From: Paracamarosporium sp. OC-R06-R3
Taxonomy: Eukaryota; Ascomycota; Dothideomycetes; Pleosporales; Didymosphaeriaceae
Reading direction: 5' to 3'
Length of the DNA: 26,306 bases
NCBI GenBank assembly: GCA_019828545.1
Contig: JACVRA010000408.1
Location: 1 to 26,306, forward strand
The position numbers and the translations under genes were made by a program. Below the pieces are notes generated by a model. It ran no database searches. It worked only from the letters and a program-made list of their open reading frames with translations, and was not told where the DNA came from. Positions 1,578 through 24,161 of this stretch are shown here, in pieces. Numbering within the stretch: position 1 is the first letter of the stretch; each line of letters opens with the position of its first letter.

Positions 1578-4399
1578 TTTGCTAATTTTGCAGATATTTG
1601 ACAACTTCCCTTGTCATTAGACTTCGATTTCAGTCCTGTTGTAGTCACTTCCTCTAAAACCTCAACTCAGCCACCCGTAGTGCCTCGATTATCGCCATGT
1701 CTTGGACAAACTCTCCGATCTGGTTACAAATAAGATCATCCCTGTCCGATCAAACGTATGCAAAGTTGTAAGCACGTTGCAAGCCTAGCGTAGAACTTGA
1801 AGTGGATCCCCTATAGTTTGAAAAACAGATAGGTGAGATGAAAATGGATGCGATGGGCCTCCACCGCAGCGGCTTAGCGAAAGTGGACGAAATCTTAGTC
1901 TTAACAGAAACGAGACGGTGAAGTGAAGAGACGCAAGCACGTTGACAGTTAGACCCAAAGTTTAGAAAGACGGAAGACCTCGATAGCCGGAGGAAAGACT
2001 ACTATATAAGCAGGATAGCAGTAGCAGGCAGATATAGACAGAATTGCGGATTTCCTGACCCTATAAACTAAACCATGCCTATAATAGTATAGAGAAGGGT
2101 CTGATTATCTAAAAAAGTATAGAGTCTTAGATATCTATTGGAGCTATACAGAATAATCATATTGTCATAGCTGCCGTGAATAATAATATCACATGAAAAG
2201 GTGACGATAAAGGTCTCTTTTACCTGGATGTTCCACTAGTCCCCATGGGGTGATGATGAACGATATTCTGATATTCTAGCACCTGACTTATTGAGCCCAT
2301 CTATTTAGCCTCGTCCTACCTCTCTAAGTGCTCACACTAGCCCTCTCAAAAGTATCAAACTCGGGCGATTTAGACAAAGTTCATACGTAGGTACTTTAAT
2401 TTAATACAACTATTATCGTGAGGGTAGAAAGACTGGTGATGAGGAGGATAACAAAGGATAAGGACGAGGGTGTGGATGTATAGAGAACCTAGAACACTAT
2501 CCTAAAGCTTCTATTCACTCTACTCAATCCCAGAGACCTCTCCGTAGCAAATAGTACAGAAGCTTCTATGCATTATTCAAACAGTATAGAATGCCTATAC
2601 GATAGTAATATACCCAATGGTCTGTAGAGGATAGGATAGATTGCGCAGAAGAGAAAAGCGACGCGGTGCTGGGCCAACTTATGGCAATCAGGGCAGCTCT
2701 CGAAAATATGGCGGATCAGACCATATCAGTGTTTAGAAGAACAACTAGGAAAACTACCAGTTCATCAAATAGCAATATAAGCAGGTCCGAGTCTGCCTGT
2801 TAAACTCGTCTAGATCTAATCGGTCAACAGGGAAGAATACTGCACTAAGAAAAGCTCTCGACATATACCCAGCTGACCGGGTACTTTTCGAGTACATAGT
2901 CGCAAGAAATGTCTTCCCTAGACATGCTAGGGTGGACGGTGCAAAAAACGTTGCGCACTGACGGGGGTTTATTCCGTAAGCATGTTCACATAGAGAATTC
3001 TCCAGCAAAAAGTACCCAGAAAGGCGACGAGCTCAAGTTGAAGTTAATGCACGAATCGCGTTTGTTTACATTTTCTGTCATTCTATCGTCGCGTTATGTG
3101 CCAATCTGAGAGTTAAAATGAATAAGATGTGTTCTCCATTATTGTGTATGCCCCACCTGTTGATTGCTATGATCGGAAACTTGGGTGTATGATCTTGAGT
3201 AGCGTATTCATAACTGTCTACTTGTGCAACCCGAATCGAGTTATGTGTCTGCCAAGCGCAGGTCTCTGCTAACAATTTTTCAGATATCTCTCGCATCTCA
3301 CATATTCTCCAATGCTATTTCAACAGCATGTTCATAGATCTATTTAGCTCTTCTTTCGAGTCGGGTTAGAACCCCCTTTGAAATGATGTTAGTGTGACTA
3401 GCAGCTGTATCAACCATCCAAGATCCTTACCAAGCGGCTTATCGAGGGTCGCAATCAACGATTTGCTGATAAGTCTGCGGTGGGAGCCTCCGCCCTGGCA
3501 AGGAACATGATTTGAGGCTTGGAACCAGGATCCAATGGCATGTACCCTTCATCTCAGAGGATTCTTTGGGTAAGCTTGGGTGGGCGGTCTGAGGGGCTAC
3601 ACCACGCCGTAGTTGCCATTCTTGGAACTGTGATTTGAGCGCGTGATTGGAGAAAATGGCCGTCTTATACGTTAGTGTGAGTGCTATGTCATGTTCAGTA
3701 TGTGACACACGTCGCTTTTCTGCTAGACCGATCCGAACAGCTCGAATCTCTTACTAATAGTCCTTGAGTTTCTGTGACTCTCAGTAGCTATCATCTTGAT
3801 CGCCAAACTTGCTCGCTCCTTCCTTCAAAAGGTCAGTTTGCAAGAACTATACATTTATTCTCCCCCATCGGTGTTCTTGCTGGAGAAAATTGTTTTGTAA
3901 ATGGATGGGAGATGGCTATATTCGCTAGCCGCGCCGAAAGAGATGGTACGCGGATGGAACATGGAGAACGGTGCACAGGCCGTGAAAGCCTTTGAGTCGT
4001 TGGCTGTTACCGTGGGAACGATAACGCGTTGCTGGTAACAAACCAGAATTGGGTCGAGGCGGCTCGTGATGATTTGCAGATTAGATGTGAACAAGAGGGA
4101 AAGCAACAATGGACTCGCAACATAACAGGCCACTACCAGAGGATCACCCGGACTGGCAGGCAGGCGCTAGGCTTTGGCTCCTACAGGGCCAACTCGTCAA
4201 AGATTTTTCGGCCTTCTTCAGTCGCGATCTAACCCTTTTCTCTACATACCCATTATTGAGTATATGCGCCAGGGTCACCACGTTCGCCAAAACCTTCCAC
4301 GCACCGCACAGCAAACGACACAAATTTGTGTAGCACGACGCTTGAGTAGATAAAACCTCCTCTTCGAACTTCACACTTCTCTCTTATATAACAACCCAC
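1578..4399. other. TA-rich gene desert, probably RIP-decayed repeat DNA
   Basis: No ORF here has recognisable protein character. Between about 1780 and 2650 the sequence is full of TA-containing words such as TATAG and ATATAG, on both strands, the pattern expected when CpA is turned into TpA by repeat-induced point mutation. A few short frames (for example around 2660-3010) give hydrophilic peptides interrupted by stops and may be relics of a repeat. The last 400 bases must contain the promoter of the MpaB-like gene. A TATATAA word sits at 4385-4391, only about 9 bases before the ATG, so it may not be the functional TATA box. Confidence 0.6.
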
Positions 4400-5754
4400 A
4401 TGTCAGTAACCATCATAGGTGCGACTACGGCGGCAACCGCCGCCTCGTGTATCCTTATCTACTTACTACTCGTGCGTAGACCCCGTTTCCGACGAGCCCA
4501 AAGACACAACAGGTTTCTGGTTGGCCAAAACTTGACGTTAGGTGAAGCATGGACAGTACATCAGAGGTTGCAATCCCTTTCTTCCTCCCTACAAAACTTG
4601 ACCACACTGACGATGTACAAAGTCTCGTCGAGTACGAGTTTCCATCCGTATTCTCTAAGGCAACTGTATTTGCTCTATTCCGTGCCTACGGCATCCCGAA
4701 AATGTCATCTGCCCTGTGCAGCACTGGTCAGTTTTTTTCTTCCGTCAAGACCGACAAGCGGATGACGGACACTGGGCTGCTGCTGATGGAAGCAATTCTG
4801 AACCCATCGGGACACGAACGTAGCCTTGCCGCCATGGCTCGGATAATCTACCTCCATGCGCCATATCGCCGCGCTGGAAGGATCGCAAACGAGCATATGC
4901 TGTATACGCTGAGCCTATTTGTACTTGAACCCACACACTGGGTGCGACGTTACGAATGGCTTCAGCTAACTGATAAGGAGAAATGCGCGATTGGGGTAGT
5001 CTGGTACCAGGTCGGTGTCGCTCTAGATATCGATTACGGGACCCTTTCAACCGAGCAGCATGGGTGGGTGGATGGCCTGCGGTGGTTGCGAGCGCTAGAG
5101 GCGTGGAGCGTCCGGTTTGAAGTAGACAACATGCAACCATCGAAAGCCAGTGAAGCCATCGCGAAAGCCACCCTGGACGAAATGATGGCCAAGGTTCCAC
5201 ATCCCATTCGTCGATATATCATTAGGTTCGCCAGTACGCTGCTAGACGAACGGCTACGGTTTGCAATGGGGTTTGTCATGCTTAGATTCGAATACGTATG
5301 TTCTCGGCTAACACCAGACGGCATACCACATCCTTCGAAACCTTACACCTTTCTTACAGGCGTTGTTGTTTCGGCACGTAGGTTATTCCTCCTCCACGCG
5401 TGCCTTCCGCGTATATGCCCGAAGCAACGACTGCCTGGGCTAATCCTCGGAACTGACCGCTTTCGCCCCCGCAGCTACCGAGTGCGACCGTGGTACATGC
5501 CAACGACTCCTACGCGCGGTTTCACTTTCATGACGTCTATCTGCAAATGGTGGAGAGGTGCTGCCCCTCACGACGAAACAGAAAGTTATTCTCCCTCTGG
5601 ATTTCGACATGTCGATCTGGGCCCGGAGGAACAGGTAGGACATGGCCTGGAAATAATAAAGGCCGAGCGAGATCGCTTAGCTAGTATCCTTAACTGGGAC
5701 GTTGTCATCTTTTATGGCAGCCACACCTCTGCAACGAACTTCGCGCCCACGTAA
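4400..5754 (+). CDS. MpaB-like ER-bound oxygenase (DUF2236 / rubber-oxygenase fold)
   Basis: Model join(4400..4566, 4623..5754), 432 aa. Exon 1 encodes a membrane anchor at residues about 3-25 followed by a basic stretch, then the LTLGEAW segment. The 56-nt intron ends in AAG, and joining restores GEAWTVHQ-SLVEYEFPSVF, which aligns without gaps to the MpaB-family region ending EFP..F. Family hallmarks follow: ALFRAYGIP, YLHAPYRRAG, MLYTLSLF, YEWLQLTDKEKCAIG and LLDERLRFAM. The family acts on the ER membrane, and in mycophenolic acid biosynthesis MpaB cleaves the farnesyl chain oxidatively. A prenyl chain made by the UbiA enzyme of this cluster is therefore a plausible substrate (inference). 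About 17 extra residues follow FAMG compared with relatives as I remember them. The C-terminus lacks the usual short CPF-like end. Confidence 0.85.
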
Positions 5755-6233
5755 GGTGACGACAAGTTGGTAGGCAAACAAGGTCGAGATGATTAATCAT
5801 ACCTGTACGGCAAATGCAGGCCCCCGAACTAGAACTCTATAGTGTAAAAACACGGAGCCATCCAATCCTCGACCATGTACACTGCACTCGGTCACATCAG
5901 TAATGAAAATGCTCATCAAGTTCGATTGAAAGCTCCAAATTGACTTTCTCTGTAAGTGTTATGGTTAGCGATCGCTAAATCTGGAAGATCCAATTGATAT
6001 GACCTCTTCTCTGGCCGACTCGCCAATTTCTTGATCATGTAGTTCAGTTCTAGTAACATATATGCATGGAGAGCTGGAACTAATGTCGCATTCACATATG
6101 AGCGCTTCTTCCTGTAAATATTTGTGATCAAGAAAGCAAAGGGATCAAGCTCATCACGTACGCCAGGGCGTCACGATCAATTACGAGGTATTTATTCTTG
6201 GATTTTATGAATTAATATAGAGCTAACAGAAAA
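5755..6233. other. Convergent 3' intergenic region
   Basis: Lies between the stop codons of the MpaB-like gene and the P450. Only short AT-rich sequence is seen, presumably the two 3' UTRs. No gene found. Confidence 0.6.
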
Positions 6234-7940
6234 CTATGAAGCGGACCGTTCGATGAGATCCACATGCGCTTGGCTCCTCGGTAGGATACGCAAAGGAAAC
6301 GGAGCCTCTTGCAGGTGATGATTGAGTCTGTGGCTATCAACAGGCCCGTCTTGCACTATGTCAAAGCAGTAGATCATCTTAGCCAATGCAAGGAACAGCT
6401 CTTGATGTGCGATCTTGTATCCAACGCAAACTCTCCTTCCTCCGCCAAATGCCCACAGATCCTCAGTGATGTTGAGCTCCTTCCCTTGCCATCGTTCAGG
6501 AAGGAACTCTTCCGGACGATCAACCTCGTTCGCAACGATGAGTGAGTTGATGACAAAATCAGTCCCCTTTGGGAATGTATATCCTTCGAAGTGTATTGGT
6601 TTCGTTGAGTGATGCGATGGGATCAAAGGTACAACTGGCCTCCAGCGCATAGCCTCTTTGATGATGGCCGAGAGATATGACAGTGACTCCATGTCGGCAA
6701 TATTGGGAAGTCGGCCTGCTGTACCCAGCACAGAGTCAAGCTCTTTGCGAGCCTTTTCCACAACGCGAGGATGGCAGAGTGTGGCCATCATCAGCACGTT
6801 GTGCGCTCGACGAACATTGTCACTGCCGGCAGCGACGATTGATGTGGCAAGATACATTGCCTCCTCGTCGTTAGTAGCAAACTTGCTGTCCGACTTCAGG
6901 AGGACGTCGCGTACAAAAGATGGCGGAGTGTTACCGCTTGCGGTGTCTTTCTTTACGGGTGCCCACCAGGCTTTGAAAACGCTGTTATGATCGACACCCA
7001 TTTGCCGCCAGAACTTGCGGTATGGCTGGAAAATGCCCATGCTGGGAAAGAAGTCGAAGATACTGGAGTAGATGCTGAGGATGAACTCAACAGTAACACG
7101 ACGGAACTCATCGAGCTCGTTCTTGGTCTGTTTCGGTTTTCCGCCAACCACAACGCGATGAATAACGGAATACGCATAGTCGTAGTGGTGGCGGAACCAT
7201 TGTTCGGGTGCTTGGAGATAGCTCTTCAGCAGCCTTGTGCTCTCCTCTTCCTGGATGTGGCCATATGTTCTTGTGGCTGTGCCACTGAGCAAGTGATGCA
7301 TGAGTTGGCGTCCCTCTTTCCATTGCGCAGTTTTCTTGAGCACCGTTCTGTTGTTGCGGCTGACAAGTCCGGCGGAGACTGGGAAATCGGGTCGCTCGCC
7401 AGTGACTGCAGCTTGCTTCGCGATGATCTCCTTGACAACCCGATTACTGTTTAGGAACACCCAAGTGCGTGTTCCCATTTTCAATGTGGTCATCTCGCCA
7501 TAAGAGGCCACTTCTCTCGCCTAGGAAAGTTAGGTAAGTGTCTCAGGTGCATGAATTAAACCTACAAAATGCGCGAACTTGGCAGGGTTCTGCTTCGCTT
7601 CGAAGAACCATGGGACACTTCCAACAATTGGCCAACCTTTTGGCCCTGGTGGTAATCTTCTGGGACTAGAGAGCCCTAACGCGGGGATCGGTAGAGATTT
7701 ACCAGCGATCGTCAGGCATATAGCGACGATCGGGACAATAGAAAGCAAAATGTAGCTCAATAGAGCGCTGCCCTGGATGATTTCAAACCCATAGTTTCGG
7801 GTGCCATACTGCAATGTCTGATTTGATGAAATCGTTACGTTGGCCAGAGATGTCGCCATTGCGGCGATTGACCGAAAGGGTAGGATCTTGCTCGCCACGG
7901 TAACAAAATGCGATGTCGCAATGATCTTGCAGGTCAACAA
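6234..7940 (-). CDS. Cytochrome P450 monooxygenase
   Basis: Model complement(join(6234..7520, 7566..7940)), 553 aa. The 45-nt intron joins AKFAHF to AREVASYGEM in frame. Visible features are a membrane anchor at about residues 55-80, the proline hinge RRLPPGPKGWP, the I-helix AAGSDN (about 355-360), the ExxR motif EAMR (414-417), FLPERW, and the heme loop FGGGRRVCVG with the cysteine ligand near residue 490. In the I-helix Asn stands where many P450s have the second Thr-region residue (AGxDTT); I recall a related SDN form in several fungal tailoring P450s. It is an ER-membrane oxidase needing a P450 reductase. The start may instead be the Met 27 codons downstream (MATSLAN). It shares a 1.1-kb divergent promoter with the NTF2-like gene, so it probably oxidises a cluster intermediate; its substrate cannot be read. 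Confidence 0.93.
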
Positions 7941-9027
7941 GCCTATAAAGTTTCACAGAAATATATAATCACCGGGAACACAAGATGGACTGCCACATCA
8001 CGGATAAACTAACTTCAATGAATACTCAATCAATGCAAGGGGCAAAGTCAAGATACACGGAGGGAACCGAGGTCGTTTCATCTCACGCGAGAGTAAAGAC
8101 GGAGTTCTACACGGTGTTCCCATAGCGGTCTAGTAATTCGATGCCTATCAGTTCGTATGTCTCCAGCTTCAGGTGATAGGATGTGTCCTCGCCACATCCT
8201 CATCCGACGCTGAGCGCCAATGTGACGGTGCCCACGGATATCTGCGCGGCACGCAAGAAGCGCCCCGGTGGAGCCCAAGGAGCTAGTAACGTGGCGGGTA
8301 CATGAAGGCAGTGTTTTGGAAACGAATATTGCCCGATCCTTCCGAATAAGCATTGTAACAACAGCTTGCGGGGTCGTTGGGATCATGGTAGAAACGATAG
8401 CTAGCCACAGAATACTAAGATCGACGATTCCTGGTTATCGGAGATGCCGCAGATACACTGCAAGGAGCGGATCCTTGGTCTATGCTTGAGACGTTTCGAT
8501 TTTACCTTTACAAGCCCGGTGGCGTAGCTTGATAATGAGGGGTACAGTGTGAAGTGGGTCTTTACCAAGTGCTGTCAATTTTGAGATCGCCTAGTTCCTG
8601 ATCAGGTAGGTCATGCATGACGGTTGTGGATTTGCTGACTCCGTGATTTAAGCGAAATGTGCCTCACACGATGACAGGGATGGCGGATGCTAGCAAGTCC
8701 ATGTGCCTAGCGTGGCCAGGGGTATTTATCTTTTACCAAAGTGAAAACGAAACCTAACGCATCTAGGCACTGGACAGTGCACCCTTGTCTGCCATACCTA
8801 GAGCCGCCTGCGAACCGGGCTCAATCCCCCGCACACATCCTCAGCGGAAGCCGACGCTTTGTCCGGCGTTTGAACAGTTAAGATTCCTTCCCGTGGACCG
8901 CCTCGTCGATCCAAGAGTGCCTTCACTAAGCCGACATACGGACTGTTGAGACCAGACAAACCAAATACTACGACGCCATTTCCGACCGCACGAAACTTCA
9001 CCAATTCCAAATAGCCTCCTATACACT
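7941..9027. promoter_or_regulatory. Divergent promoter region, P450 / NTF2-like gene
   Basis: About 1.1 kb between the start codons of the P450 and the NTF2-like gene, with no convincing ORF. It must carry both promoters. A CGG-N3-CCG word lies at 8845-8853, about 175 bases before the NTF2-like ATG. Confidence 0.6.
8845..8853. promoter_or_regulatory. CGG-N3-CCG candidate Zn2Cys6 site
   Basis: CGGAAGCCG, an inverted pair of CGG triplets with a 3-base spacer, the type of site bound by dimeric fungal Zn(II)2Cys6 regulators. A site with the same spacing (CGGACTCCG) occurs in the aminotransferase/prenyltransferase promoter. Short words like this arise by chance, so support is weak. Confidence 0.3.
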
Positions 9028-9618
9028 ATGTCTACCGACAAAACCAATCTTTATCGCAAGAAGCTCGATGAACTTTACGTCATCATTCAACGTCTACGTC
9101 CCTCCTCTTCTCCCGAAGAGTTCGAAGCTTTTGCTTCATGCTTTACTTCAGACTGCACTGTGTACCTGAAGAGCATGAATATGCACAGAATGCCAGGCAT
9201 CTCACGTCACGAAGCGATCGAGGACATGAGGGAGGTGCTCGAAAAAGCCCATGTTGAGGAGCGTGAAGTGCTCCATTTCTCTCTCTCCGCGGATGGACAC
9301 ACTGTCTTCTGCGAAACTAAGCAGCGCATCAATTGCATGGGCGAGATAATCGAACCATTCTTCGAAACCGAAGTGGTAACTTTCGATGAAGATGGCCTGA
9401 TTAAGGTGCTGAAATTGTATAATTGTTGGAGCCCGATTGTGCGCATAGTGCAGGACAAGACCGGCAAAGGACCGTATGCTGAAGGCGAGCGACGGGAGCA
9501 ATTCGAAGCATATGTCAAACAGGTAGCGATGACGAAGATACAAAAGCGAAAAGCAAGGATGGATGCTGTGACCCCAGATCAAGCACAAAACGGCGTAAAT
9601 GCGGGCTGTTGTAATTGA
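9028..9618 (+). CDS. NTF2-like / SnoaL-fold small protein
   Basis: Single-exon ORF of 196 aa, no signal peptide or membrane segment. Layout fits the cone-shaped NTF2-like fold: an N-terminal helix (YRKKLDELYVIIQRL), then FASCFTSDCTVYLKS, ISRHEAIEDM, and beta-rich stretches ending EVVTFDEDGLIKVLKLYN. In ascomycete clusters proteins of this fold act as isomerases or cyclases (for example Trt14 and AusH in meroterpenoid pathways), but many have no known activity. The C-terminal 50 residues are charged and extend past the fold, with CC near the end. Its stop codon lies only 17 bases from that of the PLP enzyme on the other strand. The fold call is by pattern and moderate; the reaction is unknown. 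Confidence 0.6.
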   Translation: MSTDKTNLYRKKLDELYVIIQRLRPSSSPEEFEAFASCFTSDCTVYLKSMNMHRMPGISRHEAIEDMREVLEKAHVEEREVLHFSLSADGHTVFCETKQRINCMGEIIEPFFETEVVTFDEDGLIKVLKLYNCWSPIVRIVQDKTGKGPYAEGERREQFEAYVKQVAMTKIQKRKARMDAVTPDQAQNGVNAGCCN

Positions 9619-9635
9619 GAGCTTCATAATTATCA

Positions 9636-11020
9636 TCAAAGACTTCGATAGACAGACTCGATACGTGACAGGCCCCTCTGAAGATCTGCTTGATTCACAG
9701 CAAACGATATCCGCATCCAACCCTTCTGGCTTGCATTAACATGGTACGCTACTCCCGGAGCGACCATTACACCAGCTTCGATGTACCGATGAAACGCTGC
9801 CATTTCTTCTTCAACTGTCGTTGCTTTTGGGGCTAATCTGCAAAACACAGCTACTGCTGCGTTGCAAGGAAAATACGCAATGCCTACACGATTGAGGAAT
9901 TTCGTTGTTTCCACGAAGGCATCTCTAAGCCTCTCTTTGTTGGCTTGGATAAGGCTCGGCAAAGTCGGTGATGCTAGCAGCTCTTTTGCAAAAAGCGTTG
10001 ACAAAACAGAAACATGAACTGAAGAGATGAGAGCGATTGAATCTGCGACCTCCTTGCGTTGCGTCAACACACATCCCTGCATATGATTAGACAGGCTGAT
10101 CAACAGACTCGGCACATACCAATCGAACACCACTCGCTGCCAGATCTTTGCTTAAGCTCCAGATGACATGAATACGACCAGAGTCAGCACCCAAAGCTCC
10201 TGGATCTAGCCCAAGTACAGAAGTAAATTTTGGCACTTCGGTCATATCAGGTGAGTCAAATTCGCTCAAGGCGAAGACCTCGTCCGAAACAAGGTGGATA
10301 TCATGCTTTTGGCAGAATCGGATGCAGCTTTTGAGCACATCTACTGAATAGCATCTGCCCAGCGGGTTGTGTGGGTTCGAAAGTACCAAGGCCCGGACTC
10401 GTCTCTGCGAAGTAACGAGCGCATGTTCAAGCGCATCGATGAGAGGTAGCCCTAAGGAGTCTTGGAAGTCAGGCACGTCGACGCCGAGTGGCATCACTCC
10501 AGAGTGACTAGTGAAGAAGGCATCATAGCCAGCTGTGATATTTCAATCATAGTCGTTAGGCTTTGTATGGTCTTACTTACACCAGTATGGTGTTGGGACA
10601 AGGACCGCGTCTCCATCATCACAAAGAGTGTATAAAATGGAGTCTAAGCATGCGGCCGCACCTGCTGTAACCGCCAAGTGTTTCGGCTCTACCTTGAAGT
10701 AAGGTTGAAAATAGTCGTTGAATAATTTTGCGAGCAACTTCAGGAGTTGCTCGTCGCCCCAGAAGCCTTTCGGCCAGTCAAGATGCTGTTCATTTCAGAG
10801 AGGATCGATACATATGCTGAATTCAGAGGCATACTTCAGCTTGTAATGATTTGGAGACTGCAGATTTGACGAATTGAGACACCTCGTCACGAATTAGATG
10901 ATTTTCAGCCATTGACAGGTTCACCCAGTTTGGGTCAACAGTCGGCTCAAGAATGGCCCGAGGTATCTTGGCAATGATTTGGGAGACATTGAATTGACCT
11001 CTGACGGAGAGGGAGCTCAT
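9636..11020 (-). CDS. ACC-synthase-like PLP-dependent enzyme (aminotransferase class I/II)
   Basis: Model complement(join(9636..10076, 10120..10532, 10581..10785, 10835..11020)), 414 aa. Introns of 49, 48 and 43 nt join in frame with good GTATG/GTAAGT donors. Fold-type I signatures are LSMAENHLI near the N-terminus, WGDEQLLKLL, the AGAAACLD cofactor loop (103-110), SNPHNPLG (182-189), VSDEVFALSEF (212-222; Phe216 where many have Tyr), the Schiff-base lysine in SLSKDLAASGVRLG (Lys259) and GWMRISFAV with the carboxylate-binding Arg390. Length fits the family. The ATG at 11020 starts MSSLSVRG; an in-frame upstream ATG at 11116 adds 32 less likely residues. Fungal cluster members of this family do transamination, beta/gamma elimination or substitution rather than make ACC, so the reaction is open. 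It shares a divergent promoter with the prenyltransferase. Confidence 0.9.
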
Positions 11021-11119
11021 CGTGGGTGCGGATGGTGAGAGACGGATGCTCGTAGTCTCCGTAACGTAACGTGAACGTGTCCCATAAAGCAGGTACCTTC
11101 TGTTCTTGCTAAGCAACTA

Positions 11120-11138
11120 GATCCGTACTTCACGGATC
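11120..11138. promoter_or_regulatory. Inverted repeat with CCG-N7-CGG core
   Basis: Perfect 7-base arms GATCCGT / ACGGATC around ACTTC. The core reads CCG-N7-CGG, a plausible binding site for a Zn(II)2Cys6 dimer. It lies 100 bases upstream of the PLP-enzyme start. Confidence 0.4.
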
Positions 11139-11196
11139 ACAGTTCCTTCCGCAAGCCGGGACCTGCTCTTAGCCCCCATTGTAGGCTTAAGTTTGA

Positions 11197-11216
11197 CCTG
11201 CATATGCGTATGCAGG
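11197..11216. promoter_or_regulatory. 20-bp inverted repeat
   Basis: Perfect 8-base arms CCTGCATA / TATGCAGG around TGCG, in the middle of the divergent promoter. No known regulator is assigned to it. Confidence 0.4.
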
Positions 11217-11317
11217 CATCGTATGGCGCTAATTTAGCTTACACTTGCTTTCCTAAAGCAGGAAAATCCTCCGAAAAGCCCAAAACGTACCCAGTTACCC
11301 ATTAGTGCCAGGGAGCG

Positions 11318-11350
11318 CGGACTCCGAAAGGCGAATCATTTCGGACTTCG
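11318..11350. promoter_or_regulatory. CGGACTCCG and CGGACTTCG pair
   Basis: CGGACTCCG at 11318-11326 (CGG-N3-CCG) is followed 15 bases later by the near-identical CGGACTTCG at 11342-11350. The second form recurs at 16152-16160 in the A-T/methyltransferase promoter. A shared regulator is possible but unproven. Confidence 0.3.
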
Positions 11351-11654
11351 CACGGGCATAGTTCTGTGTCAACCTTTGGATCCAATCTTCCACTATCGCA
11401 CTGCTTTGAACAAGGCAGCCCTATTGCCGTTGCACCCGTGGTCAACGTGGCGTGGCAACAGATGCTCGGCTAGGTAGTGCTGGAAGTAAGTAGCGGGGAT
11501 GAATCGAGCGGAGGCGAAACAATAAATCTGTTGCTGAGTGGATACCTGTTCCCTGTGTCCATTATATCTCGTCTTGCCCTCGCTCGTCATTTGGGCCTGC
11601 CATCACCTCTTCGCCAACCCCTGCTGTTGGTACCTCGTTCTTACATCCACCACA

Positions 11655-12743
11655 ATGGTACAGAAATCTTCCTATGCTTCGACTGGGTCGTACACGAGTA
11701 CGCACGCCACCAACCGTAAACCAACGGGCCGGGCCGCAAAGGCAAAGCCTGCAGACGACCCATCAACGCTCTGGTCTCATCTACCGCCCTACATGCCACC
11801 TCAAACCACTCTTTTTAAAGTGATACCTGAGTACCTGATTCCTTACGCCGAGTTGATGCGACTCCATAAACCTGCTGGATACTACGCTTTCTTCTTTCCG
11901 CATCTTACGGGTACACTATTGGCAGCTGCCCAGGGCCCTATCACGCCAACACCCGAGACGCTCGCGAGGATCATTTTGTCACATGCTGCAGCAAATCTCT
12001 TCCTACGAGGCTCAGCATGTGCATACAATGATGCCTTAGACGGGCCGTTCGATCGGCTAGTGGAGCGGTGCAGACACAGGCCGGTCGCCAGAGGCGCAGT
12101 GAGCCCATTTGGCGCTTATGTGTTTGCGTTTGCGCAGGCTTTGGTTTGGATTGCCATTCTTGCAACACTACCGCGAGAAACAGTGAAGCCTGCCATCTGG
12201 CTCGGCTTAACTATGCTTCTCTATCCTTGGTGCAAACGCTTCACCAACTATCCACAGGTAGTCTTAGGCTTCTCACTCGCCTTGGGGCAAGGTATCGGCG
12301 CTGGAGTGGTAGGATGGGATGTCCTTGCGGAGCAAGACGCTTGGAAGCGACTTGGAGTGGTGGCGATTTATCTCGGTGCAGTTCTCAACGCGATCGTTTA
12401 TGACACCGTCTATGCCTACCAAGATCTGAAAGATGATCTCAAAGCCGGAGTTATGAGCATGGCAATCGCTTGCATGGGCTGGACAAAGCAGTGGCTGAGC
12501 TTGTTGAGTTTCTTCGAAGTCGTCTTGTTGGCTGCGGCGGGGTACGCCATGGGGTTTGAAGGCGCGTATTGGGTTTTGTCGGTGGGGGGAACAGCAGCAG
12601 TACTAACCTGGATGCTGCTCACCTGGAAGATTGATAACAGTGCAGACTGCTGGTATTGGTTCTGCCATCTGATTTGGTTCACTGGCGGTACCGTTTGCGG
12701 TGGGCTGGCTGGCGAGTATGTGCAGAAGTTGTTGGTACTGTAG
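11655..12743 (+). CDS. UbiA-family membrane prenyltransferase
   Basis: Single-exon ORF, 362 aa from the ATG at 11655, which has a good context (CACAATGG). The frame is open further upstream to an ATG at 11538, but those 39 residues are Cys-rich and unlike the family. Both UbiA aspartate motifs are intact: NDALDGPFD (about residues 125-133, followed by the R..RP pattern in RHRPVARG) and YDTVYAYQDLKDD (about 249-261). These bind Mg2+ and the prenyl diphosphate. About eight hydrophobic helices are visible, as expected, and LMRLHKPAGYY opens the domain. Relatives in fungal clusters prenylate phenolic or 4-hydroxybenzoate-type acceptors (MpaA, AscA/StbC, Trt2, AusN). Chain length and acceptor cannot be read. 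UbiA-type terpene cyclases such as Fma-TC are the alternative; the canonical motifs favour prenyl transfer. Confidence 0.92.
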   Translation: MVQKSSYASTGSYTSTHATNRKPTGRAAKAKPADDPSTLWSHLPPYMPPQTTLFKVIPEYLIPYAELMRLHKPAGYYAFFFPHLTGTLLAAAQGPITPTPETLARIILSHAAANLFLRGSACAYNDALDGPFDRLVERCRHRPVARGAVSPFGAYVFAFAQALVWIAILATLPRETVKPAIWLGLTMLLYPWCKRFTNYPQVVLGFSLALGQGIGAGVVGWDVLAEQDAWKRLGVVAIYLGAVLNAIVYDTVYAYQDLKDDLKAGVMSMAIACMGWTKQWLSLLSFFEVVLLAAAGYAMGFEGAYWVLSVGGTAAVLTWMLLTWKIDNSADCWYWFCHLIWFTGGTVCGGLAGEYVQKLLVL

Positions 12744-13172
12744 AGGATTCAAGCAAGGAAATAGCCCCGGTTTAATAGTTTAGTACGTGATTATTGTTTT
12801 ACCAATCATTCAGTAACCACACGACATGCTATCTATGAATGAGCAACCCAACTGTGACATGCTCATTTGATACAAGAGAGCTGCGTGAAGCGATGACTGG
12901 AAAAAGAACACATGATGATTAGACCTCTTTCTCAATCGGGTTTTGCACAGAGAGACGAGTGCGAACTGCTAGAGTAACCAACTCATTCTCAATTGCCCCA
13001 GGACTAAATGTAACTATTCGGTAAGTGATAGAAGCCGGATAACATGGACACAGCAAGATGAATATCCGAGCACTCAAGCGAAAACGCCTCGTGAGAGAGG
13101 GAAAATAGTTTGAAAGATACCTATCAACGACTATAAAACAGAACTATACAGAGTTGACGCCTGGAGAACTTT
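12744..13172. other. Convergent 3' intergenic region
   Basis: 430 bases between the stop codons of the prenyltransferase and the A-T enzyme. AT-rich, presumably 3' UTRs. No gene seen. Confidence 0.6.
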
Positions 13173-15395
13173 CTACACGTTGATCATAGCCAAAATTTCT
13201 CGCACAGTCGGTTTCTCGTACACACTTTTTACCTCAAGTTCATCCGTACCAGGATGCGACTTAGTCAAATGCTCATTCAAGACGCTTACCAAGCTTGTGA
13301 CCTGAATGGAGTCTAAGCCTGCGTCGAACAGATTGCTATCATCGGAAATGCCATCAACGTCAAGGTTTTCAGCCAATTCTTCGTAGATCAAGGACCGAAT
13401 CCGTTGGATAGCGGTGACCAGTGAGCCATTGGTGAGTCTTTTGCCGGGAGTGTTATTCGAGAGACCGTCGGGCAGAAGACTCTCTGCAGGCGGAGATGGG
13501 GGAGCCGCGCCGCTCAATCCAAGAAGCATTCGGGAGAACGCTTTCTGGACAGCTACATCTAGTAATCCCGGGAGAACCTTTGCAAGCGCTTTCTCGATGC
13601 GTGCATCGAGATCTTCGATTTTAATGGTCGGTACAGCAGATACAGCAGGCTTTTGCGTGGATGCCTTCGGAACAGCGACAGGTGCGGTCTCCTTGACAGT
13701 TGGCTGAACTCTCTCATAGAGCTCTTCGAACTCAGCCTTGTATAGCTTTAACGCTCCCTGCCGCTGTACTGTCCCCTTTCCTGCCCTAGGGATCGGCTTC
13801 TCTGGCTTCGCCAATATAACAAATTGTTTCATGATCCGACCGTGAGCTGGGCAAGCACGATTGGCCTCGAGTACAGTTGGCCAGACATCCTTAATGAACT
13901 GTTCTTCTTCCTCCACAGTACTGGGATAGACATGTGGCTCGATGAGAAGTGATGCCTGGAACTTTCCTTGCCCGCCAATGAGAGCAGACTTAACTTTGGG
14001 ATTTGTAGAAATGGTGCTCTCCATTGTGATCGGATTCAATTTCTCCGCAGTGGTGAAAGCAATGATGTCATCTGTCCGAGCTCGGAAGGCCCATGATTGC
14101 GGCCTGGTAGGGTGTTGTTCGAAAAGGTCACCAGAGTTGAAGCTCTGTTTCTCTGGGAAGGTAGAAAAGACGCCCTGAAGAAGTTTGCGCTCTGGGTCTC
14201 GATTTATCACGAGTTCGTAGTATCCTGACTCCTCGTGTTCAACAAACGAGTGGCCCAAAGATTCACTGATCGTCAGGTACGACCAGTCAGCGGGGTCGTC
14301 ATTGATCTCAAGTGGGTGGAGTGCTGTCTCGCAAGAGCCCATCAAAGTCATCAGTTTGATTCTCTTGGTCACTTCATTTCCAACTTCTGATGGTAGGGCA
14401 CCGCCGACGTATGACAGGAATTTGATGTTCGTAAGCATGGTTTCGTAGTATTCCGGGTTATTGAAGCAGTCGACAATCAATGAAGGCGCGAGTAGCGCTC
14501 CATCTAGGTTGGCGTATTTGTAGACTTCATTCATCAAATCTGCCGTGAGTGGTTCAGGTGGTGGGACGACAGATGTGACTCCAGCGAAGATATTGTACCC
14601 GATAGCAAAGGTCAAGCAGGCTGCATGGAAGAGTGGAAGAGCGAGAAAGTAGCGCTTGCCCTTGAGGAAGTTGACGAGCGTGGGTTTTCCGCTGAGCGAG
14701 GGAATGAGCTGATGCGCATCATTGCAGGCAAATGTGCCATATGTAACGAAGACTGGCTTGGGGATACCGGTCGAGCCCGAAGTGTGTAGCACGCAAAACG
14801 GTTTGTCTTTTGCTTCCTCCCAGGTCAGCTCGAAAGGAACGTGCTTCACCTTGTCCAGGTCCTCGAAGAAGTACTTCAGTGGTGGGAAGGGGATCTGTTT
14901 CTTCATGGGCAATGTCTTTAGAATCTGACCCAACATGGTCGGTGCCTCCTCGGGTACTAGGATGGTCTCACATCCTGCCTTCTCCGCAATAGATTGATGG
15001 GCCTCGATGCTGTTACGGTGAGAGCTAAAGAAAGGCTACATGGCGAGTTAGATTTAAGTTCCAGGCGAAAGGTAGGTAGAGAATCTCACAATGTGTCCTG
15101 CTTTTGGTGTACCCAAGATGACCAACAGATAGCGAATATCTAAAGGCCCAAAGTAGAGAATTGTTTTCTGTTCGTTTTTCTCGTCGAATTGTGAACGCAG
15201 CCAATTTGCATACTTGTCGACAGCTTTAGCGAATGTACCATAATCTATATCTTTCCATCCTTGCGACAAATCTGTAGACTTTGGCACACATATGAAAGTT
15301 CGTTCAGGGTCGTTGACAGCAATCTCATCAAGCACAGCAGGCAACAACCGCTTTCCGCAGTTTGCGGGGACACTCAGATCTGGGGTAAATTCCAT
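13173..15395 (-). CDS. NRPS-like adenylation-thiolation (A-T) didomain enzyme
   Basis: Model complement(join(13173..15035, 15090..15395)), 722 aa. A 54-nt intron joins GHI to PFFSSHRNSIEAH in frame. The adenylation domain (about 20-540) shows the P-loop HTSGSTGIPK (186-195), GSCET (335-339), SGD (403-405), RTDD (422-425) and GKGTVQR with the catalytic Lys near 522. After a Pro/Ala-rich linker (about 545-640) comes a carrier domain with NLFDAGLDSIQVTSL; the phosphopantetheine serine is near 678. The protein ends soon after the carrier helix with no reductase, thioesterase or condensation domain. The N-terminal half resembles fungal aryl- and amino-acid adenylating reductases. It should load a carboxylic or amino acid as thioester. 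How the product is released is unknown. It shares a 1.2-kb divergent region with the methyltransferase. Confidence 0.92.
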
Positions 15396-16602
15396 TGGTT
15401 TAGATTGCGAAGAAGGGACGATGCAGGCTGGTGATCAATGGAAAATGGGAATTTTTGACACGCTCGCTCAATATCATGACGGACAAGGCCCACCCTAGCC
15501 GACTTGGACTATCATCAGTCACTGCACGTTGTCGATGCATCGATTGATCCCCGAATCCTCGGTCACGCTACAACAACAGCTATCAGCCTGACGGCCCATG
15601 CGTGCCAATCAATATCTCAAAGGGGGTTTTGGTCCGATTCCCGACGTTGCAGCGTGCTCTTCAGGGTGGCGTAACAAGCATATGTCGACCATCCTTTTCC
15701 CGAGACCAGGATATCTATCTCCTACACAATTGTTGAGCATGGCTACCCATGCGCCTAGGTGGTGAAGACCGTGCCTTCTAGCGAATGCAAGACAAGCCAC
15801 GGGGTGGCGTACTCGCTCTAGAGGTCGAATCACGTATCCAACGAGTATCTGGCCACCGTGCGGTGAGTCTAGTAACCGTAGAACATGGGTCCTTCCGAAG
15901 GCAACCGGAAGACAATGCGTAGGCACTCCATGGCACAAACTCGACGGGCGTAAATTGCACCAATGGAAATTTCAATCCGAAGCGCCGACCCCAGTAATCC
16001 TTCAGCAGGCGGATGTCTCCAAATGTACCTTTACCTTCCCGATCGACTAGACTTGGCCCCCAGTTTCCACAAAAAGTATTGCATGCGGATCTGGCTAGTA
16101 GTATTTAGCGCCAAGGAACGAGCCTCAAACGGCGCAGCCGACAGCCGGCAGCGGACTTCGGGCTTTGGTGGACCAGAAGCCGTCTTTAGCGCAGACGGGC
16201 TGCAATAGCGGCCCCTCTACAAGTGTTTCTGACCCCACTTTTTTGGAATCCTACGAACGTGTACCGGAACTTTGCGCGACCACTGCGCAACCAGGGCACA
16301 GTCGACCAGTGTGCATGCAGGTTTCGAGTGACCCATCATCATGATCATCAAGGTTGCCCTGTCGGGCTCTATTGGTAAGGTGGCAAGAAACCGGACAAAC
16401 ACCCATCCGTGTGATTAGTTACACCACGGTATACTACTGTGTGGTGGCACAGCTTCGTACGCTCTCATTGCGCTGGATATAACCTCGTGAGCAATCCTTC
16501 GGTTTGTTTTCTTAGGCTGAACAACCATCAGCTCATTCATCGTGCTAGCAAGTTTGCACCCTTCATCTACGCGAACACCTGGGCAAAGTCATCTTCCACA
16601 CA
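15396..16602. promoter_or_regulatory. Divergent promoter region, A-T enzyme / methyltransferase
   Basis: 1.2 kb between two start codons without a convincing ORF. It contains an inverted repeat CACCG-TG-CGGTG (15854-15865), TTCCG-N8-CGGAA (15893-15910), CGG-N5-CCG (16130-16140) and CGGACTTCG (16152-16160). All are candidates only. Confidence 0.55.
15893..15910. promoter_or_regulatory. TTCCG-N8-CGGAA inverted repeat
   Basis: Five-base arms TTCCG and CGGAA separated by eight bases give a CCG-N8-CGG arrangement, compatible with a Zn(II)2Cys6 site. Chance occurrence cannot be excluded. Confidence 0.3.
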
Positions 16603-17448
16603 ATGTCCGCCCCACCCACCGCTCAAGAAGGTCTTGCAGCTTTTGCGTCGGTAATTGACGTCTACGAGCATCGTGTTGGCCATGCATGCCGCGCAGTCGC
16701 CTCCCATCTCCCGGCGCTTCTCCAATCCTTCCCGGCCTCTGGCGGCACCGTGCTCGACAACGCATGCGGCACAGGTGCTGCATCGGAAGAATTCTTGAAG
16801 AAGTTCCCCACGGCGGAGGTATATGCCGCCGATGCGGTACCACCTATGGTTAATGGTTTCAAAGCGGTCATTGCGCAAAAACCAGAACTGCAGCAGCAGA
16901 TCAAAGAAGTGCGGATAGAGGACGCCCAGGCCCTCACGTTCGCAGACAACACCTTCGATGCGAGCATTACCAACTTCGGCATATTCTTCCTTCCTCAACC
17001 TGTCGAGGGCGCCAAACAGATATATCGCACACTGAAGCCGGGTGGTACTGCATTAGTCACGTTGTGGAAGACTTTCGGCTTCAAGCCGATCCTCTGGGAG
17101 ATTCAAGAGCAGCTCAAGCCTGCGAACCCCCTCACGGAGCTTCCCCTCATGGAGCCGTGGTGTGACTCTGCTTTGACGGAGAAAGTGCTGAAAGAGGGGG
17201 GATTCCAGAATGTAGAATTTACCGTAGTTAAGGAGGGCCTGTGGGGAAAAGACAAGGAGGACCTTAAGACTGTTCTACTCGAGAACCTTGGTACTTTGAC
17301 GCAACGGAACTGGACCGAGGAGGAGAGGGCTCAACTACCAGCTTACATTTCGAAAGTAGTCGACGAGCAGCAGGACAAGTTTTGCATCACTGACGGCCCG
17401 AAGGTTGGTGTGCAAATGGAGGCATGGGTTGCTCTTGCCACCAAGTAG
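16603..17448 (+). CDS. Class I SAM-dependent methyltransferase
   Basis: Single-exon ORF of 281 aa. The SAM-binding motif I is VLDNACGTGAAS (about residues 50-61), followed by VYAADAVPPMV with the acidic residue that binds the ribose, the EDAQALTFADNTFDASITNFGIFF segment (motifs II-III) and RTLKPGGTALVTLWKT. This is the UbiE/methyltransferase-11 style of fungal cluster methyltransferases. No signal peptide or membrane segment, so probably cytosolic. The ATG has good context (CACAATGTCC). It may O-, N- or C-methylate a cluster intermediate; the acceptor atom cannot be told from sequence. Confidence 0.9.
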   Translation: MSAPPTAQEGLAAFASVIDVYEHRVGHACRAVASHLPALLQSFPASGGTVLDNACGTGAASEEFLKKFPTAEVYAADAVPPMVNGFKAVIAQKPELQQQIKEVRIEDAQALTFADNTFDASITNFGIFFLPQPVEGAKQIYRTLKPGGTALVTLWKTFGFKPILWEIQEQLKPANPLTELPLMEPWCDSALTEKVLKEGGFQNVEFTVVKEGLWGKDKEDLKTVLLENLGTLTQRNWTEEERAQLPAYISKVVDEQQDKFCITDGPKVGVQMEAWVALATK

Positions 17449-17822: not shown

Positions 17823-19067
17823 CTATACAGTCTGGTGCGTTTGCGTCGGAGGGAGAATGCCTTCCCGGCTAGAGTTCGACGGCAGCCTCTGCGGCTTTCC
17901 TGTCTGGTCGATGCTGTGAACAGTACTAGTTGCCACTTTCCTTGACGGTTTGCTACCGATAGTACCCAGAGAGCCTTTCATAGCGTAACTGTCGCCCTGA
18001 GAGCCCTTGGATGAGCCATAGGTCTGGCCCGTTACGCGCGACCAAGTTGCTTTTGTGTAGTTGGCGACCGGTAAGACGAGCGGTCGACATTGCGGAATGC
18101 TACCAAGCAAGATTGCAATGTTGCGCTCCATGCCTGCCCACACCAGACCCGATATGGACGTGTAGGAGTTGTCTGGTACCGTCATGTGGAGACCAGCCGA
18201 GGATTCCTTCGTGCGGATGATACCGAAAATTGCGGTGCTAGTCTCATTAGCTATGCTTGCATAGCATAAGTTAGGGCTAGAGGCTTACACTAAACCAAAC
18301 ATCATGATTGTCAACAGAATGGCCTTGCTTCTCTTGCCCACTTGGATCAAGTCTTTGAGTAGGAAAAGCGGGATGATGCAGAGTGCCAGGTCCGTAAGTG
18401 AAGAGAACGAGCCTTGCAAAAGGACAAAGCCCATGAGAAACTTGCGGTCGTAGCAGGTCCCGGGAATAGACGGGTTCCATGCCTTTGCGTTCGGAATGCA
18501 TTGCGCATAGAACGAAATTATGACCATGGTGTTGACCAGGAACACGCTCACGGAGATGAAGTAACATAGGTATCTGAGCCAGTTGTTGTAGGAGCCTTTG
18601 AGGATGCGCACGTAGGTGAGGGATATGCTGATCTTGCAAAACGTCAAAGAATGGATGCAGAAGACTTGCGCCAGTAGTGAATAGTACTGTTGCTTGACTC
18701 GCTGCTCCGGAGTGAGATAGTAGAGATGCCGACCGAGGCCCCAGTGAGTTGCGACAAAATCGATGATTGTGGCAATGATTGCTTGTATCTTGACATTGTT
18801 AGCAGCATGCACTCATTCCACGGAGGGGAAACCAACCAAGGCGCCACCCATGAGGTAGTCGTCCCATCCAAGTCTTGCATATTTGAAACGAGCCTGGAAG
18901 CGAAGCAGAACCACGACCGCCGCCGCTGCGCAAGTCACAGTAGCTGCGATCTCGATTCTGTATCCTATGTTGACGTCTCCGCCAGATGGTTTGGGTAGTT
19001 TCATGGCCCCTCCACTACTGACGGGAGAGCCCATGAAGTTTCCTGGTGAGCTGCCGGTTCCAGACAT
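17823..19067 (-). CDS. Fungal integral membrane protein, PTH11/rhodopsin-like 7-TM
   Basis: Model complement(join(17823..18237, 18289..18788, 18837..19067)), 381 aa. The introns are 51 and 48 nt; the first one transcribed ends in AAG. Joins keep frame: GGAL-IQAIIATI and MFGLV-TAIFGIIRT. The N-terminal 30 residues are Gly/Ser/Pro-rich. Then come TM1 (about 38-56), the family signature LGWDDYLM (67-73), WGLGRHLYYLTPEQ, several further hydrophobic helices, a loop with Cys (QCIP and GTCYDRKFL) and the typical TKESSAGLHMTVPDNSYTSISGLVW segment near the end. The tail is hydrophilic and Ser-rich. Members of this family are orphan plasma-membrane proteins with a receptor-like fold; PTH11 has a role in surface sensing. 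Ligand unknown. Whether it belongs to the cluster is unclear. Confidence 0.85.
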
Positions 19068-20352: not shown

Positions 20353-21092
20353 ATGATGAAGTTTTTCACCATCCTGTCTACCGCACTCTTTGCTCTGCGC
20401 AGCGCCGCAGCGCCATGCGCTGCTAATGCCACACTTCCCTGCGACTGTCCCGCAGGAACTGAATACCTGGAATCAGGAACATACATCATCGCCGGTGTCT
20501 CAGGCTCATTCGTGAGGGAAGTCACTGGAGACTTCTTCAACACAACCTGGCAAAAGCGCCCAGTAATCTCTACGGTGGGCACTACCAACACTGTCGGTGC
20601 CAAGCGGACTATTCGAGTGGCCACCAAAATTGGAACATATGATTTCCCCCAGCAGGTTAGTACTCCTTGCATACTACTTCCCTCTTCTATTTGCCAACTG
20701 TGTAATGTTCATACTCACACGCGTACCCTAGCTGACATACTACGCGCTCGCTCCGGACGGCTCCTTCAAATCCCTATATGAGCTCGCTGCTCCAGTCAAA
20801 TTCAAGAACGGCAAGGGTCAATTTGCCGGCTGGTGGGAAGATCTGCAAGGTGAAGCTGCTTTCCCATACCAAACGCCGATGAGGTGGTCGCTCTTTGCTT
20901 GCTTCACTGGAACCCCCATTGGTAAGTCCTCCTGCAAAGTGTTTCTCAGCTTTGACAATCGGTTTACTGATTCGTATCACAGATTTTGCCACGTATGCTG
21001 AAGCTCGCATGAATGAATTGGTCACTTCTGCGAAAAAGGTTGGGCAGGCTCAGGGCGATACTCTTGGGCCGCTCTCACACCAAAGATTTTGA
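20353..21092 (+). CDS. Small secreted protein of unknown function
   Basis: Model join(20353..20655, 20732..20921, 20983..21092), 200 aa. Introns of 76 and 61 nt join in frame: DFPQQ-LTYYALAP and GTPI-DFATYAEA. A signal peptide is clear (MMKFFTILSTALFALRSAAA, probable cut near residue 20). The mature part has four cysteines (about 22, 30, 32, 158), two N-glycosylation sequons (Asn25, Asn63), the run CDCPAGTEY and an aromatic segment FAGWWEDLQ. I do not recognise a family. Met 2 could also be the start. Secretion and size fit an effector-like or cell-wall protein, but nothing more can be claimed. It is separated from the methyltransferase by the membrane protein, so cluster membership is doubtful. 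Confidence 0.72.
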
Positions 21093-24000: not shown

Positions 24001-24161
24001 GCGATGGCGCGTGCAGATTCAACATATAACAGTGGACCTTCTAGGCGCCTTATATTAAGGCTTCGACTCTTGTGCTGAAGCTTATCGGAAAGCGTCTTTT
24101 CGACAATAGGTTGCAGGCTTCGTCCGCCGGTACTTGAGTGTCAAGTATAATTTTCGGTACC
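21093..24161. other. AT-rich gene desert
   Basis: About 3 kb without a recognisable gene. Short frames (for example 22108-22326 and 22891-23112) have no family character. TA-rich words are frequent between about 21430 and 22900, suggesting RIP-decayed repeat DNA. Small inverted repeats occur at 22498-22564 and an 8-bp palindrome TCACGTGA at 22605-22612. The last few hundred bases should hold the transporter promoter. Confidence 0.55.
22498..22564. repeat. Overlapping short inverted repeats
   Basis: GTTTCCCTG (22498-22506) pairs with CAGGGAAAC (22550-22558), and AATAAGGTT (22521-22529) pairs with AACCTTATT (22556-22564). The two pairings share three bases and cannot both form fully. It may be the end of a decayed element. 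Confidence 0.4.

Follow-up and report, generated by a model that had tools for sequence, protein, structure and literature searches.

The window analysed here is a stretch of 26,306 bases, which makes up the complete contig C196 of the 43.1-Mb assembly (337 contigs) of the fungus Paracamarosporium sp. OC-R06-R3. Between positions 4400 and 17448, it carries seven intact neighbouring genes, which have the look of a genuine small-molecule pathway not yet described. Tentatively, they are read as a cluster that is free of a polyketide synthase (PKS) and makes a prenylated aromatic acid, in which the carboxyl group would be activated and not removed; this is quite possible, although far from assured. 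The genes encode a UbiA prenyltransferase, an adenylation-thiolation (A-T) didomain related to nonribosomal peptide synthetases (NRPS), an enzyme dependent on pyridoxal phosphate (PLP) that resembles 1-aminocyclopropane-1-carboxylate (ACC) synthase, and a methyltransferase dependent on S-adenosylmethionine (SAM), together with a P450 and two proteins of less obvious family. They are arranged as follows:

4400-5754, + strand: MpaB-like putative haem oxygenase, 432 aa (exons 4400-4566 and 4623-5754)
6234-7859, - strand: cytochrome P450, 526 aa (exons 7859-7566 and 7520-6234; PF00067, E 9.3e-53 on the main exon)
7860-9027: divergent intergenic region between the P450 and SnoaL-like genes, 1,168 bp
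9028-9618, + strand: SnoaL/NTF2-fold protein, 196 aa (one exon; C-terminus Cys-Cys-Asn)
9636-11020, - strand: PLP enzyme, ACC-synthase-like/aminotransferase family, 414 aa (exons 11020-10835, 10785-10581, 10532-10120 and 10076-9636)
11021-11654: divergent intergenic region between the PLP enzyme and UbiA genes, 634 bp
11655-12743, + strand: UbiA prenyltransferase, 362 aa (one exon; PF01040, E 2.3e-33)
13173-15395, - strand: A-T didomain, NRPS-like, 722 aa (exons 15395-15090 and 15035-13173; PF00501, PF23562 and PF00550)
15396-16602: divergent intergenic region between the A-T and methyltransferase genes, 1,207 bp
16603-17448, + strand: class I SAM methyltransferase, 281 aa (one exon; PF08241, Methyltransf_11, E 7.3e-15)

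All seven genes have open frames, and the six introns among them, which were set by eye from reading frames and family resemblance and without transcripts, are 43-56 nt long and GT-AG in every case. The genes follow each other in the strand order + - + - + - +, a strict alternation for which the chance is 1/64, and are spaced by 17-1,207 bp. Pfam was run on 26 stretches of the window, which holds 49 open reading frames (ORFs) of at least 100 aa, some of the short ones lying outside the scan; in these stretches, no domain of a PKS, terpene synthase, flavin-dependent monooxygenase (FMO), cupin or transcription factor was found. A preliminary description of the locus had placed the UbiA, P450, methyltransferase, A-T and ACC-synthase-like genes together with neither a PKS nor a terpene synthase, and the Pfam matches bear this out. 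The seven proteins that it had counted are also present, although one of them, the 196-aa SnoaL/NTF2-fold protein, had gone unnamed.

The prenyltransferase belongs clearly to its family: it matches PF01040 at 116 bits against a cut-off of 34.2, contains two Asp-rich motifs (NDALDGPFD from residue 125 and YDTVYAYQD from residue 249) and aligns to the structure 4od4 at 9.5e-9. Its best NCBIfam model is TIGR01474, 4-hydroxybenzoate octaprenyltransferase, with 181.6 bits, below the equivalog cut-off of 275.45. A COQ2-like protein encoded elsewhere in the genome, on contig C234, reaches 292.5 bits with this model and is presumably COQ2 itself; since it passes the cut-off, the window gene is, judged by its sequence, an additional and diverged copy of the COQ2/4-hydroxybenzoate type. 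Another UbiA gene, with about 40% identity to that of the window and matched in two pieces, lies on contig C167 at 11974-12949.

The A-T protein is composed of AMP-binding, AMP-binding_C_3 and PP-binding domains by Pfam, and no reductase (no PF07993 match), thioesterase or condensation domain was found in it; from the carrier serine to the C-terminus, there are only 45 residues. It was aligned with 28 rows picked by hand from 120 listed homologues, most of them chosen among those with an annotated carrier domain. The lysine of motif A10 (Lys522), the carrier serine (Ser678) and Phe238-His239 at the A4 position are kept in 29 of the 29 sequences, and 27 of them end 44-60 residues past the carrier serine, the other two being annotated with a reductase. 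Among the 120 rows listed of the 333 proteins found, 111 show a Ser motif of the carrier type in the second half of the protein (105 end at most 70 residues from it), 87 contain the strict PxFH pattern (the misses include fragments) and only two show a reductase in the precomputed Pfam column. Because most of the listed rows end soon after the carrier serine, the A-T form without a release domain is, as far as sequences tell, widespread and common. Among the matches listed, it occurs in Dothideomycetes, Aspergillus, Penicillium, Xylariales, Leotiomycetes and lichen fungi (class names as generally applied to these organisms).

Amino-acid-activating A domains have Asp at the A4 position. The Phe-His found there instead makes an aryl or other non-amino acid more likely as the predicted substrate of the A-T protein than an amino acid. 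In NCBIfam, the A domain matches fatty-acyl ligases as well as benzoate ligases, in each case far below cut-off, which does not decide between them; a PDB search with the single A-T sequence gave five matches, including DltA and a feruloyl-CoA synthetase, and a PDB profile search with the alignment gave nothing at E <= 1e-10. A and carrier domains of similar types are found in the fungal carboxylic acid reductases of the A-T-reductase (A-T-R) architecture such as PnlA, from which the window protein differs in lacking the reductase domain and hence a built-in release. According to the available text of its report, PnlA favours 4-hydroxylated benzoic acids (PMC9605436). A possible parallel in P. 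nodorum, the UbiA/NRPS neighbourhood SNOG_07120/07126, was dropped, SNOG_07126 being listed as A-T-R-R. The preliminary description had seen here the tailoring of an aryl acid or amino acid activated by the A-T enzyme; a PKS-free line acting on a non-polyketide acid agrees with what was found, whereas the amino acid is the less likely of its two options in view of Phe-His at A4.

For the SnoaL-like protein, no Pfam family was matched at E <= 1, and in one of four homologues scanned by Pfam, SnoaL_4 appears at just 0.14. A predicted model of the protein matches SnoaL/NTF2 folds and epoxide hydrolase/cyclase folds (limonene epoxide hydrolase and SalBIII), the absence of a family from the VIA fold listing used for this model being no exclusion of it. 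The catalytic set of limonene epoxide hydrolase is Arg-Asp-Asp. When the SnoaL alignment was used as a profile against the PDB, six matches came back at E 0.25-2, none of the SnoaL type; viral contigs scanned with the same alignment contained no relative, and PADLOC reported nothing for the protein. The family is conserved at its end: 28 of the 29 rows that reach it finish with Cys-Cys and one small residue, behind a tail that is variable and predicted with low confidence. A lipid anchor to the membrane is a possible function of this Cys-Cys pair.

The A-T and SnoaL-like genes seem to belong together in other fungi too. The search with the SnoaL-like protein returned 32 homologues, and between these and the 120 of 333 A-T rows, identically sized contigs occur in four cases, of 9,176, 12,512, 49,541 and 170,771 bases. 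When the SnoaL contig sizes were jittered (standard deviation 0.2 on a log scale), a mean of 0.05 coincidences was obtained and four were reached in 0 of 20,000 draws. In the 49,541-base case, both rows are from Melanomma pulvis-pyrius, whose homologues are close to the window proteins (73% identity for A-T and 77% for the SnoaL-like protein). The named organisms nearest for the two proteins include Melanomma pulvis-pyrius, Lentithecium fluviatile, Massarina eburnea and a Phaeosphaeriaceae strain, all Pleosporales. From these coinciding contig sizes, and not from gene neighbourhoods viewed directly, the two genes are probably a conserved core and seemingly neighbours in other fungi. The A-T homologue of Lentithecium is 678 aa long, against 722 aa in the window.

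The MpaB-like protein has no match at E <= 1 in Pfam or NCBIfam. In an alignment of four proteins (that of the window, two database matches and one paralogue from the same genome), Lys101 (codon 4756-4758) and His134 (codon 4855-4857) are invariant in 4 of 4 and 33 residues apart. This spacing equals that of K71 and H104 in Nro1, a nitrile-rubber oxygenase, which the accessible part of its report sets equal to the Lcp haem ligands (PMC12724181); in the corresponding part of the LcpK30 report, these ligands are His198 and Lys167 (PMC5522427). The top PDB match of the four-sequence profile is the trans-anethole oxygenase 8s1j, a weak match (E 0.041) in which the KR..DT and His motifs align, and an AlphaFold2 (AF2) model of the exon from four sequences, meant to be compared with the globin-like fold of the family, has a pLDDT of 42.7, too poor for use. 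The label "MpaB-type" given to the gene in the preliminary description is therefore supported at the level of residues only, by the Lys and His at family spacing. Of 7,997 candidates scored, two relatives passed E <= 1e-10, the better with 34% identity, in a search in which, by a shared 5-mer estimate, a homologue of at least about 50% identity should show unless introns broke its gene prediction; the database searched included Melanomma. Because only distant relatives were returned, the MpaB-like gene may be a local addition or accessory, and chain cleavage may be peculiar to the source fungus.

These observations bear on the mycophenolic acid (MPA)-like tailoring that had been proposed for the locus. 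In such a line, the main event would be oxidative cleavage of a farnesyl or geranylgeranyl chain by an MpaB-type oxygenase, with the resulting chain acid activated by the A-T protein in place of an acyl-coenzyme A (CoA) ligase. The Lys/His haem motif with the spacing of Nro1, the trans-anethole oxygenase as top profile match, the UbiA gene in the cluster and an A domain unlike those for amino acids agree with it, and the gene classes are present. The parallel is nevertheless weak: the MpaB-like protein has just its two distant relatives in a database that holds close A-T and SnoaL-like homologues, its profile match is poor and its model unusable, and the mixed NCBIfam matches of the A domain do not decide between the two kinds of acid. 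The MPA route is also PKS-based, and needs a PKS, a CoA ligase and peroxisomal beta-oxidation. An MPA-like line is thus unlikely. The neighbouring P450 has its closest paralogue in the same genome at 35% identity over residues 109-395. The I-helix of P450s normally has Thr after the acidic residue; in the window protein it reads AAGSDNVRR (gene part 6234-7520), with Asn at the usual Thr position, which a subfamily trait or atypical oxygen activation may explain.

It is also conceivable, although rather unlikely, that the seven genes do not serve a single pathway, and that a smaller core of A-T, SnoaL-like and perhaps UbiA and PLP genes stands beside unrelated neighbours such as the MpaB-like, P450 or methyltransferase genes, or that the locus is a fragment of a cluster continued on another contig, the window being a whole contig. 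Several observations weigh on this side and against one common pathway. The MpaB-like gene is apparently not conserved, and the linkage evidence concerns the A-T/SnoaL pair only; the remaining 28 SnoaL rows have no size coincidence with the A-T matches listed, and the A-T record of Melanomma, labelled as partial, lacks a carrier motif. No strong common promoter motif was seen either: the four promoter regions share ten 7-mers when strands are counted apart, against a mean of 1.7 in shuffles, and five when strands are collapsed, a number that random sets of window stretches attain in 60 of 2,000 cases. No 8-mer is common to the four regions, and CGG-Nx-CCG is not spread across the promoters, three CGG-N12-CCG sites all lying in the A-T/methyltransferase region. 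The shared promoter motif is thus a weak hint and is not used as support. In favour of one cluster, in turn, are the short gaps, the alternating strands and the Pfam-scanned stretches left of 4.4 kb and right of 17.5 kb, in which no biosynthetic domain was found.

The spliced PLP protein matches PF00155 (Aminotran_1_2) at 5.1e-39, and its closest solved relatives are plant ACC synthases (1iax, 2.5e-36). The PLP-binding residues of the ACC synthase fold are retained (Lys259, Asp214, Asn186 and Arg390). Residue 217, in the exon 10120-10532, is Phe, whereas Tyr follows the conserved Asp-Glu in all five paralogues compared from the same genome, a change that may alter the PLP chemistry. The nearest of the paralogues, with 40.9% identity over 350 sites, is encoded on contig C68 (support 0.67 in a six-sequence tree). 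Between about 21.7 and 62.7 kb, where ten ORFs were submitted to Pfam and five matched, this contig carries genes for a P450, an ABC transporter, the ACC-synthase-like PLP enzyme, methyltransferases and an NRPS condensation domain, and it also has the best M19 dipeptidase match of the genome. We take this gene make-up to resemble that of gliotoxin-like, or epipolythiodiketopiperazine (ETP), clusters, and at a guess, C68 holds a cluster of this type. In gliotoxin-like clusters, the ACC-synthase-like protein GliI acts as a C-S lyase, and the same activity is possible for the PLP enzyme of the window, as far as its sequence goes.

Among the 14 PDB matches of the methyltransferase, the top one is 3mgg, titled plainly "Methyltransferase" (3.9e-8). 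RoqN, by its title an O-methyltransferase, OxaG, which we take to be another, and 5jgj/5egp, presumably the thiol (S-)methyltransferase GtmA, align over about residues 38-252. Together with the PLP enzyme, this raises a sulfur route, in which a cysteine-type thiol would trap an electrophilic epoxide or quinone, the PLP enzyme would act as a GliI-type C-S lyase and S-methylation would yield a methylthio prenylated aromatic. The nearest PLP paralogue on a contig with a presumably ETP-like gene make-up and the methyltransferase match to the presumed GtmA structures point to it. However, the support for the pairing with C68 is just 0.67, solved methyltransferases including RoqN and OxaG outscore 5jgj, and the closest relatives of the window methyltransferase in its own genome are different from the two methyltransferases of C68. 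Nor did the stretches of the window covered by the scan show any glutathione transferase, thiol oxidase or dipeptidase domain, and the sulfur route is distinctly unlikely. Still more improbable is a terrequinone-type route from an amino acid or alpha-keto acid, in which the PLP enzyme would transaminate an aromatic amino acid, the A-T protein would activate the product and UbiA would prenylate it. The tdi set also combines PLP, A-T, prenyltransferase and methyltransferase genes, and the PLP enzyme is in the aminotransferase family. The window protein has, however, no thioesterase domain and is not an A-T-thioesterase (A-T-TE) protein of the TdiA type, Phe-His occupies A4 in all 29 aligned sequences, and the tdi prenyltransferase is not known to be of the UbiA type.

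The flanks of the seven genes contain:

738-1577: left-flank ORF, 279 aa, with no convincing Pfam domain
about 17823-19067, - strand: Fung_rhodopsin gene (PF20684, E 2.6e-26; a further exon at 9.9e-4, below cut-off)
about 20353-21092: small ORF with a hydrophobic start
about 24162-26062, + strand: POT-family transporter (PF00854, E 4.1e-53 on the main exon)

The preliminary description had the cluster flanked by gene deserts left and right. On the left this is roughly correct, as no recognised gene was found in the 4.4 kb besides the ORF at 738-1577, which is likely a relic of a repeated element because it has four partial relatives elsewhere in the genome (47-68% identity). On the right it does not hold, in view of the rhodopsin gene, the small ORF and the transporter. 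The fungal-rhodopsin gene probably falls outside the cluster, and the transporter, near the contig end, might work for the cluster or have nothing to do with it. The gene-poor regions 1600-4300 and 21150-24150 gave self-matches only in a genome search and, for this reason, offer no evidence of a repeat border.

Returning to the prenylated aromatic acid as the tentatively preferred product, the absence of a decarboxylating FMO from the scanned stretches, together with the presence of the A-T protein, speaks for a carboxyl group that stays on the molecule and is activated. The proposal also follows the scheme of xiamenmycin, in which UbiA, SnoaL-like and adenylating enzymes work on 4-hydroxybenzoate (PMC4053376). 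We infer every substrate, the order of steps and the product of the pathway that follows. In the first step, UbiA, whose family assignment is firm, would place an isoprenyl chain on an acid of the 4-hydroxybenzoate type. The chain would then be oxidised by the P450, and in the source fungus, the MpaB-like putative haem oxygenase, so classed by its Lys and His residues, may also cleave a C=C bond of the chain. By its predicted fold, the SnoaL-like protein could direct the closure or opening of a ring from the oxidised chain, perhaps tethered to the membrane by lipidation of the conserved Cys-Cys pair. The A-T protein, as its domains indicate, would bind the carboxylate in a thioester. As it lacks a release domain, it would then hand the acid to a nucleophile from elsewhere, in the manner of xiamenmycin in bacteria. 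This nucleophile would be made or freed by the PLP enzyme, as a C-S lyase or transaminase, and finally the methyltransferase would cap an O, N or S atom.

A more specific form of this pathway, which as a whole is improbable, would have as its conserved core a SnoaL-like cyclase anchored by a lipid and an A-T protein for aryl acids that lacks a release domain, with a sulfur or amine nucleophile from a GliI-like C-S lyase releasing the prenylated acid. If true, the product would be a sulfur- or nitrogen-bearing prenylated aromatic of a new class of fungal PKS-free pathways, and the membrane anchor (a Rab-like or acylated Cys-Cys) would hold the cyclase at the site of UbiA. PKS-free UbiA clusters are easily overlooked when genomes are mined by backbone genes, and two of the seven proteins here, the MpaB-like and SnoaL-like ones, escape Pfam. 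The A-T and SnoaL-like pair may serve as a searchable signature for fungal pathways that are possibly undescribed as a set. Two questions arise for enzymology: how an acid is unloaded from an A-T protein that lacks a release domain, and why a small SnoaL-like enzyme retains its C-terminal Cys-Cys.

PKS-free UbiA clusters as such are already known. The asperpentyn (aty) and biscognienyne (bis) clusters are fungal and PKS-free, and use UbiA and a P450 on 4-hydroxybenzoate (PMC12356543; PMC8998291). The aty cluster differs in having a phenylalanine ammonia-lyase, a decarboxylating FMO, a cupin epoxidase and ketoreductases, none of which was detected in the scanned stretches of the window, and A-T, PLP, SnoaL-like and MpaB proteins are not named for aty in the available text (PMC12356543). 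The moserinol (mos) cluster is likewise a PKS-free UbiA cluster on 4-hydroxybenzoate, but it has a Pyr4-type cyclase and an FMO, and its six genes, as given in the accessible part of the report, are without A-T, PLP and MpaB members (PMC11109268). According to the same reports, the FMO of aty and bis removes the carboxyl group (PMC12356543) and that of mos is proposed to do so (PMC11109268), and one genome-mining study counts seven PKS-free UbiA clusters with a Pyr4-type cyclase (PMC11109268). In the literature searched, which comprised titles and the openings of abstracts and left most subscription journals outside, no cluster combining A-T, SnoaL-like, PLP and UbiA genes was found. The statement in the preliminary description that the gene combination was not recognised is thus upheld for the full set, which is undescribed in that literature, and needs to be qualified for the PKS-free UbiA clusters.

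With the mpa cluster, the window shares the classes of UbiA, MpaB-type oxygenase, P450 and methyltransferase. The mpa cluster is PKS-based, whereas the window has no PKS in its scanned stretches, contains A-T, PLP and SnoaL-like genes in addition, and has an MpaB-like protein that is a distant relative at best. The xiamenmycin (xim) cluster of Streptomyces is bacterial and has five genes; its amide synthetase XimA joins threonine, with no carrier domain mentioned in the available text, XimC supplies 4-hydroxybenzoate, the epoxidase XimD stands in place of a P450, and no PLP enzyme, MpaB or methyltransferase appears in that text (PMC4053376). What it shares with the window, according to the same source, is a UbiA acting on 4-hydroxybenzoate, a SnoaL-like protein proposed for ring closure and an adenylating enzyme that acts on the carboxyl group (PMC4053376).

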